From: Haladaptatus sp. R4
GTDB lineage: Archaea; Halobacteriota; Halobacteria; Halobacteriales; Haladaptataceae
Reading direction: 5' to 3'
Assembly (NCBI RefSeq): GCF_001625445.1
Contig: NZ_LWHG01000021.1
Location: forward strand, 744,001-808,000
DNA length: 64,000 nt
Part shown: positions 3,970 to 8,489 of the stretch, in pieces
Layout: every line of letters begins with the position of its first letter
How positions within the stretch are numbered: the first letter of the stretch is position 1
Translations under genes and position numbers: made by a program
The notes under the pieces: model-generated
Told to the model about the DNA's origin: nothing
What the model saw: only the letters and a program-made list of their open reading frames with translations
Database searches by the model: none

Positions 3970-4767
3970 TCACCACTGGAGTCCGTGCTCTTCCTCGAAG
4001 TACTCCGATGGACCGATGAACTGTCCCGACGGTCCATCCGCCGGAAGGGTTGCCGCACGGACGACGAACGACGCTCCCTCTTCGACGGGACGACCGCCGC
4101 TGAAATCGTGGAGCGCGGTCGAGGTGTAGCCGGGAGCCGCCGCGTTCACGAGAACCGCGTCGCGCAGTTCGGCGGCATAGACAAGCGTCATCGCGTTCAC
4201 CGCTGCTTTCGACGAATTGTACGCCAGTTCGTTGAACCGGTTTTTCGAACTGGCGAGGAGCGCCATGGATCCGAGCTCGCTCGATACGTTCACTATCCGT
4301 CCGGCTGGTGCCCGGCGAAGCAACGGAAGCATCGCATGCGTCACGGCAACGACCCCGAAGACGTTGACTTCGTACGTCCGTCGCATCATCCCGTCGGTAA
4401 CCTCGCTGGGGGGTCGTTCCCCCTCGTTGGAATTACCGCCAAGGCTGACCCCGGCGTTGTTTACTAAGACATCGAGTCGGCCGAATTCGTCTTCGATGCT
4501 CCGTACCGCGGCCTCGATGGTGGCTTCGTCAGTCACGTCGAGCCGAACGAAGCGTGCATCGATTCCATCCTCCCGAAGCGTCTCCGTCGCTTCCTCGCCA
4601 CGCTGTTCGTGACGCGCCGAGACGAAAACCGTCATCCCTCGTTCGCCTAACTGCCGAGCAGTTTCGTATCCGATTCCCTTGTTCGCGCCGGTGATCAGTG
4701 CGACTTCGCTTTGCTCAGCATCAGATTCAGCGGAGGAATCCGAGTTGACCACGTGAGTACGATCCAT
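3970..4767 (-). CDS. SDR family NAD(P)-dependent oxidoreductase
   Basis: A 265-residue classical short-chain dehydrogenase. The cofactor motif is TGANKGIG (about residues 26-33), followed by NNAG and the catalytic Y-N-S-S-K (YxxxK) with an upstream NVSSELG serine. I place the start at the ATG at 4767 instead of the in-frame TTG two codons upstream. It is transcribed away from an HxlR-type regulator 131 bases upstream, an arrangement usual for a redox enzyme under a dedicated regulator. The substrate cannot be read from sequence. It interrupts the translation-gene cluster, suggesting later insertion. Confidence 0.9.
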   Translation of the reverse strand: MDRTHVVNSDSSAESDAEQSEVALITGANKGIGYETARQLGERGMTVFVSARHEQRGEEATETLREDGIDARFVRLDVTDEATIEAAVRSIEDEFGRLDVLVNNAGVSLGGNSNEGERPPSEVTDGMMRRTYEVNVFGVVAVTHAMLPLLRRAPAGRIVNVSSELGSMALLASSKNRFNELAYNSSKAAVNAMTLVYAAELRDAVLVNAAAPGYTSTALHDFSGGRPVEEGASFVVRAATLPADGPSGQFIGPSEYFEEEHGLQW

Positions 4768-4898
4768 GTGCAACTACGCCTCGGATCGGTGCATGAATAA
4801 GTTGTCAAGACCCAAGCATGAAAGCAAGGCCCAAGCTCGGGTGTTGCTTCGTCACTTGGACCAATAGCCGTATTAGAAACCGTCTCGATAGTGAATCC

Positions 4899-5321
4899 GT
4901 GAGCCAACACGAACGTGAGGCGGACTGGAGTGGTCTCCTCTCGGATATCGATGCTCAAATACCTCCCGCGGAGGGTGTCCCCGAAGCGAGGTCCAACGAG
5001 AAATCGGATTTGCTCACCTTTTTGGGCAGCGCATACATGCTCAAGGTCCTGCACGAGTTCGTACTGGACCCCGGCCCGTGGCGGTTCAACGAACTTCGGG
5101 AGCGGCTGGACGTTCCCCCGACGACGCTCACGAACCGGTTGAAGGAGTTGACGGACGCGGGGCTCGTCGTACGCGAGTCGTACGACGAGATTCCACCGCG
5201 AGTCGAGTACACGGCAACCGAGAAGCTGCTCGATTTCAGGCCCGTATTCGGCTGTCTCGGGATATGGGTGGAGAAGCACGGCTGGGAGGAGGTTCGTTCA
5301 GAGGCTCCGGAAGAATCGTAA
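4899..5321 (+). CDS. HxlR-family winged-helix transcriptional regulator
   Basis: About 140 residues with the HxlR/MarR-like winged helix: WRFNELRERLDVPPTTLTNR as the recognition part, then LKELTDAGLVVRE and the wing YDEIPPRVEYTATEKL. An in-frame ATG at 4818 would add 27 basic residues unlike haloarchaeal protein, so I prefer the GTG at 4899 (VSQHERE). It lacks the N-terminal sensor cysteine of some HxlR proteins; its only cysteine is in FGCLGIW near the C-terminus. The divergent SDR gene is the likely target, by inference from position. Confidence 0.85.
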   Translation: MSQHEREADWSGLLSDIDAQIPPAEGVPEARSNEKSDLLTFLGSAYMLKVLHEFVLDPGPWRFNELRERLDVPPTTLTNRLKELTDAGLVVRESYDEIPPRVEYTATEKLLDFRPVFGCLGIWVEKHGWEEVRSEAPEES

Positions 5322-5399: not shown

Positions 5400-6161
5400 C
5401 TAGTCCGCCGCTTGTTCGGAACCACCTTCTTCGCCACCGAGGACGTATTCACGGGCGGCGTCGACCAGCGCTTTTCGGTACTCGCTCTCGGTGGGGTCGT
5501 CGCCGAGCGAGAGGAAGCGGTATTTGAACCCCTGTACGTCAACGGACGGAGCGTCACGGGAAGCGGTTCGGGCGAGGTCGTAGAGGCGGTGGTCCCGCTC
5601 GACGAGGTCGTGGCGCTCGACCATGGCGAGCGCGAACGCGGCGTTGACGGCCGTCATCTCGGGGTCGGAGGTCGCGGTCAGTCGGCGGCCCGGAAGTCGT
5701 TGCGGACGGTCGGCGACCAGCGCCGCGAGTTGCGATTCGAGGAAGGTGACGAGTTTGTCGCTCGGACCGAGGTCGAGCGTGATGTCGTCGGCGTAGATGT
5801 CCTTCATGTGATTGGCGATCTGGTAGCAGTGAGTGAGTTTCCGACGCTCGACCGACCGACCCGCGAAGGCGAGGAACAGCGCCTCGGCGGTCGATTGGGT
5901 GTGTGAGGGGTGGGACTGCTCGTTACGGGCCATGTGCGAGTACTCGTGGAGTGCAAGTTCGCGGGCCATCACGCTGGTCGCGGCCTGCCGGGAGATGTTG
6001 AGGACGTGGTGGCCGTCGGGGTGGGCGGTCCACGTTCGTTCGTCCGGATCGTCGCGCACACGAACGTGAACGGGTCGTTCGAGGTCGAGTTCGGTTTCGA
6101 AGAGGTCGGAGGCACTGAGGAACGGGTTGGGGGACGTAGAACCGTGTACTCGAATATCCAT
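5400..6161 (-). CDS. DUF5781 family protein with HExxH metallopeptidase-like motif
   Basis: A 253-residue haloarchaeal protein of unknown function that I recall as DUF5781. From the ATG at 6161 (MDIRVHGSTSPNPF), residues 72-76 read HEYSH, a zincin HExxH, followed by a glutamate at about 93 in STAEALFLA that could be a third zinc ligand. No signal peptide or membrane helix is visible, so it should be cytoplasmic. It is divergent from EF-2 across 141 bases. An in-frame ATG 10 codons upstream (6191) is less likely. Peptidase activity is inferred from the motif only. Confidence 0.82.
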   Translation of the reverse strand: MDIRVHGSTSPNPFLSASDLFETELDLERPVHVRVRDDPDERTWTAHPDGHHVLNISRQAATSVMARELALHEYSHMARNEQSHPSHTQSTAEALFLAFAGRSVERRKLTHCYQIANHMKDIYADDITLDLGPSDKLVTFLESQLAALVADRPQRLPGRRLTATSDPEMTAVNAAFALAMVERHDLVERDHRLYDLARTASRDAPSVDVQGFKYRFLSLGDDPTESEYRKALVDAAREYVLGGEEGGSEQAAD

Positions 6162-6293
6162 GCGTGCTGTTGTCACGCTCTGAATGGGCATTACTCTTGT
6201 GCCATATGTGACTGTTTAGCAGGGTAATGGGCCGTTTCCAGCCGTTTTGTGGGCGGGAAAACACTACGCTTTTCAACCTCGTACAGGTAGGGA

Positions 6294-6309
6294 TACCCAT
6301 ATATGGGTA
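6294..6309 (+). promoter_or_regulatory. Perfect 16-bp palindrome across the EF-2 start codon
   Basis: The sequence TACCCATATATGGGTA is its own reverse complement and contains the EF-2 ATG (6303-6305). In RNA it could fold into a short hairpin that hides the start codon; in DNA it could bind a dimeric protein. It lies about 25 bases downstream of a TATA-like gcttttcaac at 6278-6287, so it would be at or near the mRNA 5' end. Confidence 0.6.
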
Positions 6310-8489
6310 GACGAAAGAAAATCGTCGAACAGTGTGAGCGGCTCATGGACAAGCCGGAACAGATCCGGAACATCGCCATCGCCGCCCACGTCGACCACGG
6401 TAAAACGACGCTGACGGACAACCTTCTCGCTGGTGCGGGCATGATCGCCGACCAAGGCGAAGCCACCCAGTTGATGATGGACACGGAGGAGGACGAGCAG
6501 GAACGCGGTATCACCATCGACGCGGCAAACGTCTCGATGACCCACGAGTACGAGGACAAAGACCACCTCATCAACCTCATCGACACGCCGGGTCACGTCG
6601 ACTTCGGTGGCGACGTGACCCGTGCGATGCGTGCCGTCGACGGTGCGCTCGTCGTCGTGGACGCTGTCGAAGGCGCAATGCCGCAGACGGAGACCGTCGT
6701 CCGACAGGCGCTCCGCGAGGGCGTTAAGCCAGCCCTGTTCATCAACAAAGTGGACCGACTCATCTCGGAACTCCAAGAGGGTCCCGAGGAGATGCAACGC
6801 CGCCTGCTCAACGTCATCGACGACGTGAACGAGCTGATCCGCGGCATGACCGAGGACATGGACGACGTGGACGACTGGACCGTCTCCGTCGAAGAGGGAA
6901 CCGTCGGATTCGGGTCGGCACTCTACAAGTGGGGTGTCTCCATGCCGTCGATGCAAGCGACGGGCATGGACTTCGGGGACATCATGGACCTCGAACGCAA
7001 CGACAAGCGCCAAGAACTCCACGAGCGAACGCCGCTGTCGGACGTCATCCTCGACATGGTCTGTGAACACTTCCCGGACCCCATCGAGGCGCAACCGCGA
7101 CGTATCCCACGCGTCTGGCGTGGTGACGACGAGTCCGAACTCGCAGAGCAGATGCGACTCGTGGACCCGGACGGCGAAGTCGTCCTGATGGCCACCGACA
7201 TCGGTATCGACCCGCACGCTGGCGAAATCGCCGCCGGTCGTGTCTTCTCCGGAACGCTGGAGAAAGGCCAAGACCTCTACGTCTCGGGAACCGCCGGAAC
7301 GAACCGCGTTCAGAGCGTCGGTATCTACATGGGTGGCGAACGCGAGGAAGTGGAGCGCGTCCCTGCCGGGAACATCGCGGCAGTCACCGGTCTGAAAGAC
7401 GCTATCGCCGGTTCGACGGTATCGAGCGTGGAGATGACGCCGTTCGAGTCCATCGAACACATCAGCGAACCCGTCATCACGAAGTCCGTCGAGGCAAAGA
7501 GCATGGACGACCTGCCGAAACTCATCGAGACGCTTCGACAGGTCTCCAAAGAGGACCCGACCATCCAGATCGACATCAACGAGGACACGGGTGAACACCT
7601 CATCAGCGGACAGGGTGAACTCCACCTCGAAGTCATCACCCAGCGTATCGAGCGCAACCAGGGAATTCCGGTGACGACTGGTGAGCCTATCGTCGTCTTC
7701 CGCGAGAAGGTCCAAGGAGCGACCACCGAAGTCGAAGGTATCTCCCCGAACCGCCACAACCGGTTCTACCTCACGGTTGAACCGCTGTCGGACGATATCG
7801 TCGAGAAGCTGAAACTCGGGGAGGTTTCGATGGACATGCCCGAACAGGAGCGCCGTGAAGTGCTCCAAGAGGCTGGCATGGACAAGGATATCAGCCAGAA
7901 TGTCGAGGAGATTCACGGGTCGAACATCCTCATCGACAACACGAAAGGTATCCAGCACCTGAACGAGACGATGGAACTCGTCATCGAAGGTCTGGAAGAG
8001 GCGCTCGACAACGGTCCGCTCGCTGGCGAACCCGTCGAGGGAACGCTCATCAAGCTCAACGACGCACGTCTCCACGAGGACACCATCCACCGTGGTCCGG
8101 CACAGGTCATCCCTGCGGTCCGGCAAGCAGTGCACAACGCACTCATCCACGGTCACGTCAAACTCCTCGAACCGATTCAGAACGTCCGTATCGACGTTCC
8201 GAACGACCACATGGGTGCCGCGTCCGGCGAGATTCAGGGTCGCCGTGGCCGCGTGGACGACATGTACCAAGAGGGTGACCTCATGGTCGTCGAGGGTATC
8301 GCGCCCGTCGACGAGATGATCGGGTTCTCCTCGGACATCCGCAGTGCGACGGAAGGTCGTGCGTCGTGGAACACGGAGAACGCCGGGTTCCGCTTTATGG
8401 CGGACAACCTCCAGCGCGAGACCATCATGGAGATCCGAGAGCGCAAAGGCATGAAGTTGGAACTCCCGCAGGCCGTCGATTACTTCTAA
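6303..8489 (+). CDS. fusA: Translation elongation factor 2 (EF-2)
   Basis: The 728-residue GTPase translocates the ribosome. It shows G1 AHVDHGKT (about residues 29-36), G3 [11 protein letters not shown]4 NKVDR, and the domain IV tip [10 protein letters not shown], where His596 is the residue expected to become diphthamide. Length is normal for archaeal EF-2 and no frameshift is seen. The ATG at 6303 lies inside a palindrome. It is separated from rps7 here by a 2.4-kb insertion, so it probably uses its own promoter. Confidence 0.98.

Follow-up and report, generated by a model that had tools for sequence, protein, structure and literature searches.

DUF5781, a near-universal haloarchaeal protein often encoded beside EF-2, is a predicted zincin-type metallopeptidase with an M78-like core

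In zincins, the glutamate of the HExxH motif binds no metal and activates a water molecule, and in the gluzincins, the third protein ligand of the zinc is a glutamate. Among the described families closest to the one studied here, M78 (IrrE/ImmA, PF06114) has a soluble core with the HExxH motif on a helix that follows a small beta sheet and a Glu-Ala pair in a later helix, features that the protein family DUF5781 appears to share. M61, BlaR1 (M56), and snapalysin (M7) would have the zincin core in common with it, and in CobT/VWA-type phage proteins with an N-terminal HExxH, the motif is followed, as in DUF5781, by a helix with asparagine and acidic residues in comparable phase. Unlike M78 proteins, most DUF5781 members score under the M78 cut-off, and they add a conserved helical C-terminal half as well as the invariant residues E81, H84, H87, H118, D121, D125, and D126. 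From M61, BlaR1, and snapalysin, the family is set apart by the absence of significant sequence similarity and by low global TM-scores, and from the CobT/VWA-type proteins by the lack of a VWA domain (no Pfam match to one in the 253 amino acids), by a different spacing, and by the absence of a profile alignment.

The Pfam entry (PF19093) gives the function of the family as unknown. A literature search found no paper naming DUF5781, none was found for the likely locus tags HVO_0355, HVO_0357, VNG2655/2656, and OE4730-4732, and neither a related tag nor protease terms came up in a search of PMC3287961, which deals with core and unique haloarchaeal proteins. An unstudied and near-universal haloarchaeal protein, DUF5781 becomes here a testable enzyme candidate with named catalytic residues. 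The genetic model Haloferax volcanii also carries the protein, and soluble regulatory proteases of archaea are a poorly known group.

The gene analyzed lies in a stretch of 64,000 nucleotides from Haladaptatus sp. R4 (contig NZ_LWHG01000021.1), referred to here as the window. The gene and the parts of its product are located there as follows.

5400 to 6161, minus strand: DUF5781 protein, predicted zincin-type metallopeptidase of 253 amino acids (translation and match to PF19093, E 6e-129)
5934 to 5948, minus strand: HEYSH motif, residues 72 to 76, with His72 and His76 as predicted ligands and Glu73 as predicted catalytic base; invariant in 158/158 homologues; helix 66 to 81
5883 to 5885, minus strand: Glu93, predicted third zinc ligand; invariant in 158/158; helix 91 to 99
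5901 to 5921, minus strand: second invariant cluster (158/158) of Glu81, His84, Ser86, and His87
5784 to 5822, minus strand: Q114-xx-N117-H118-xx-D121-x-Y123-A-D125-D126 motif in long helix 106 to 131; invariant in 158/158
5400 to 5768, minus strand: C-terminal helical half, residues 132 to 253, with helices 135 to 150, 167 to 183, 192 to 203, 209 to 218, and 225 to 246

PF19093 was the sole Pfam family matched by the window protein, which is a full-length member (429 bits against a cut-off of 25, over residues 1 to 240). An in-frame ATG is present at 6191, 30 bp upstream, but homologues start at the ATG at 6161 instead: Met1 was kept in 156 of the 158 aligned homologues, the remaining 2 being gapped there, and the start codon was ATG at all 130 loci having upstream sequence. 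The maximum Kyte-Doolittle mean over 19-residue windows was 0.89, with no transmembrane or signal-like segment visible, and the pI was 5.3. The hydropathy agrees with the cytosolic, signal-free protein described in an initial annotation of this DNA.

That annotation had also pointed to HEYSH at residues 72 to 76 and to a glutamate 17 residues later, both confirmed in the translation, and had named the invariance of His72, Glu73, His76, and Glu93 as support for a zincin. By itself, an HExxH motif is weak evidence, since 4.5% of same-composition shuffles of the protein hold one (3.4% with a glutamate 11 to 31 residues later). Homologues were drawn from GTDB contigs and whole genomes, divergent ones included, and the resulting alignment of 158 sequences, all haloarchaeal, had a mean pairwise identity of about 68% and a minimum of 47% among 3000 sampled pairs. 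All four named residues were kept in every homologue, and a reading of HEYSH as a chance motif was rejected on its conservation throughout the alignment. Only 30 of the 253 columns were invariant, so that the probability of all four falling among them by chance is 1.6e-4 if columns are taken as equivalent and phylogeny is ignored. Histidine was enriched among the invariant columns (6 of the 13 histidines of the protein; Fisher P = 0.0016, again ignoring phylogeny), while hydrophobic residues were not. Further invariant residues include H52, E81, H84, H87, Q114, N117, H118, D121, Y123, D125, D126, and N173.

AlphaFold2, given 83 aligned sequences from the window and the loci, produced a model with a pLDDT of 90.8 and a pTM of 0.86. 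The N-terminal part consists of a strand (3 to 6), a helix (12 to 21), and three further strands (31 to 36, 44 to 46, and 52 to 57), ahead of the HExxH helix (66 to 81) and a short helix carrying E93 (91 to 99). The long helix 106 to 131 bears N117, H118, D121, and D125, and five more helices follow. In a Foldseek search of the PDB, the top match was an M61 peptidase (E 4.4e-3, probability 0.97), followed by BlaR1 (0.90) and snapalysin (0.98 to 0.99), with many lower matches of low probability. Along similar lines, the search of viral models returned M61, SprT-like, and IrrE-like proteins at 0.97 to 1.00, the SprT-like ones at 1.00; a 110-amino-acid protein of phage S-SCSM1 annotated as IrrE also matched at 1.00, with an rmsd of 2.1 Å over 85 columns. 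No structural match in the PDB or the viral models had an E value below 0.001, and global TM-scores were low; the fold assignment therefore leans on the agreement of several zincin families. In the predicted structure, HExxH lies on a helix preceded by a small sheet, as would be expected of the zincin helix anticipated by the initial annotation. When residues 1 to 150 were folded alone, the snapalysin match was kept (0.97 to 0.99) and the confidence dropped at residues 106 to 132, suggesting that the long helix needs the C-terminal half. For this half, no relatives were found, DUF5781 itself being the only Pfam family matching there. Searches of the PDB by sequence, of NCBIfam, and of PHROGs gave no meaningful match to DUF5781.

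Sequence profiles link the family marginally to M78. The Pfam M78 profile weakly matched 21 of 83 DUF5781 members, over residues 29 to 89 (best E 1.1e-4), and one of them just passed the gathering score (22.5 versus 22); a genome-wide M78 search also recovered some DUF5781 genes, at 22 to 22.8 bits. The window protein had no Pfam M78 match, and its genome had none at threshold. The S-SCSM1 IrrE-like protein (P0002) itself exceeds the M78 cut-off, and hhalign aligned it nearly without gaps to residues 16 to 86 of DUF5781, at a probability of 3%. If this alignment is extended by eye, again without gaps, E93-A94 meets the Glu-Ala of the ENEAY motif of the phage protein, at +17 from the second histidine in both. 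With haloarchaeal M78 proteins, the HExxH helix alone aligned, and hhalign probabilities against M78 proteins were 2 to 3% overall. Given this restricted alignment, the 3% probability, and the window protein lacking a match, we do not file DUF5781 under M78. Most likely, it is a new zincin family with an M78-like core, which would work as that of M78 does, and a haloarchaea-specific helical half bearing an invariant QxxNHxxDxYADD. Haloarchaea also encode proteins of ca. 310 to 330 amino acids that by eye combine an ArdC-like N-terminal domain with a C-terminal M78-type HEYAH...EAEA domain (L143 to L172).

Together, the invariant HExxH and Glu93, the model, the zincin-dominated fold matches, and the marginal M78 profile match support the zincin-type protease proposed in the initial annotation. 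We consider it probable that DUF5781 is a soluble cytosolic zinc-dependent zincin peptidase made of an IrrE/M78-like N-terminal core and a haloarchaea-specific C-terminal half. In the catalytic core, a strand and a helix would be followed by a small beta sheet and then by the helix with HExxH and the one with the glutamate, and the C-terminal helical half would wall the active-site cleft. His72, His76, and Glu93 would hold one zinc ion, and Glu73 would activate the water that cuts the peptide bond. Since DUF5781 has no ATPase, signal, or membrane segment, specific cleavage seems most likely: independently of ATP, the enzyme would cut a single cytosolic target or a small set of them rather than degrade proteins in bulk.

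Within this scheme, Glu93 is the likely third zinc ligand, as judged from the sequences. H84, H87, D121, and D125 are all candidate ligands as invariant as Glu93 (158/158), and because the homologues are all haloarchaeal and fairly alike, conservation does not single out Glu93 among the invariant acidic residues and histidines. The third ligand could thus be Asp121 or Asp125 of the long helix, as is maybe the case in CobT/VWA-type proteins (N-x-x-E-D-x-R-I-E after HExxH), leaving Glu93 a structural role. N, H, D, Y, A, and D are invariant in N117-H-M-K-D121-I-Y-A-D125, a stretch resembled by the HEVGH...NVVEDARIE of a CobT-like "midasin" of phage S-SCSM1, and CobT/VWFA proteins had the top query TM-scores among the viral models (0.50 and 0.46). 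However, hhalign leaves the N117-D125 region unaligned with that CobT-like protein, the spacing from HExxH to the asparagine differs by about 23 residues between the two, and the equally invariant Glu93 has the +17 spacing of the IrrE-like phage protein. We regard an aspartate ligand as unlikely and retain Glu93; the Q114...D126 motif possibly contributes to a substrate cleft or provides alternative metal ligands. A bolder proposal builds on the same residues, namely, a regulatory protease that defines the haloarchaeal lineage and has a second, unique lobe and perhaps a further metal site (H84, H87, H118, D121, D125, and D126). By cleaving a specific factor, e.g., EF-2, a repressor, or a protein associated with the ribosome, it would switch the translation or stress state. 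This proposal strikes us as quite unlikely.

DUF5781 might also be a catalytically dead relative of zincins that binds metal or acts as a scaffold, an alternative already raised in the initial annotation. The extra invariant histidines and aspartates could bind a structural metal, and activity of DUF5781 is known in no case. Nevertheless, Glu73, which as the glutamate of HExxH would not bind the metal, is invariant throughout the 158 homologues, which favors an active enzyme, and we consider a dead relative improbable.

The position of the gene beside EF-2 raises the question of a link to translation. Its flanking genes in the window are as follows.

6303 to 8489, plus strand: EF-2, divergent neighbor, open reading frame of 728 amino acids
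3231 to 3857, plus strand: rps7, flank on the other side, open reading frame

The start codons of DUF5781 and EF-2 are 141 bp apart. EF-2 was the immediate divergent neighbor at 97 of 132 loci and stood on the same side but further away at 11; at the remaining loci, it was outside the fetched stretch, several of these stretches being short. The rps7 cluster was downstream of DUF5781 in 70 loci. At the Halorubrum and Halobellus loci, DUF5781 was found among other genes, by eye a CorC-like membrane protein and a YrdC/Sua5-like protein.

Immediately upstream of the gene, we found a conserved element.

6162 to 6201, minus strand: conserved core promoter of DUF5781, directly adjoining its start codon (-40 to -1; 130 loci compared)

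Over these loci, relocated copies included, conservation was strong from -40 to -1 and absent beyond -44. T-14 was conserved in 98%, G-13 in 92%, A-10 in 95%, and C-1 in 98%, and C-16, T-14, and G-13 each exceeded 90%. The 40-bp sequence (CAAGAGTCATA...CnTGnTAnnnnTAnnCATG) is conserved across the order and moves with the gene on relocation. Without mismatches, it occurred in the window's genome solely at the DUF5781 gene, and of eight genomes searched with 0 to 1 mismatch, none had more than one match; for the four in which the place of the gene is known (G000, G152, G191, and G380), this match was the promoter of DUF5781. The element looks like DUF5781's own archaeal promoter, presumably in a leaderless arrangement, and a dedicated regulator of it is possible.

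Of 392 Halobacteriales genomes, 372 had the gene according to the Pfam model (337 among the 345 good genomes); the match was single in nearly every case, with 2 or 3 aligned pieces in a few genomes. Neither the Pfam model nor a profile of our own (E up to 10) gave a credible match outside Halobacteriales in 393 genomes of the phylum, and there was none in viral contigs, plasmids, or phages. A conserved candidate protease confined to haloarchaea among the phylum genomes sampled may mark a haloarchaea-specific physiology. Some absences extend over entire families (f38, f41, and f6) or genera (g3 and g153), and others concern single genomes, so that DUF5781 can be described as a losable core gene of haloarchaea. 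In two g3 genomes without it (L140 and L141), rps7 is followed directly by EF-2. One genome (G388) retains a decayed C-terminal remnant beside EF-2 (L138, 3547 to 3729, minus strand), while another of the same genus (G285) has an intact divergent copy, which is a recent loss.

These data bear on the suggestion that DUF5781 is coupled by position to translation elongation and, in its strongest form, that it directly regulates EF-2 or elongation and is a neighbor for that reason. The adjacency itself was widespread, but the gene lies on the strand opposite to rps7 and EF-2 and has a conserved promoter of its own that travels with it, which argues against coregulation with EF-2. Moreover, it is no longer next to EF-2 in Halorubrum, and some lineages with an intact EF-2 lack it, one of them retaining a decayed remnant. 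The expectation that the gene stays beside EF-2 thus held at most loci and failed in these lineages. Inherited gene order can yield a shared position and accounts well enough for the adjacency; the case for coupling to translation is weak, and we give direct regulation of EF-2 little credence. Least probable of all is a zincin-like fold serving a nonproteolytic role such as YbeY-like RNA cleavage, which would fit the place between rps7 and EF-2 and the ribosomal neighborhood in most genomes, because that neighborhood is not universal, the catalytic glutamate of HExxH is kept, and the YbeY structures among the weak matches to the core (0.16 to 0.25) had rmsd values of 10 to 14 Å and probabilities under those of the peptidases.

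In the window, the gap between rps7 and DUF5781 (3970 to 5321) holds, by eye, a short-chain dehydrogenase-like gene on the minus strand and an HxlR-type regulator-like gene on the plus strand, which break up the ribosomal and elongation cluster there.
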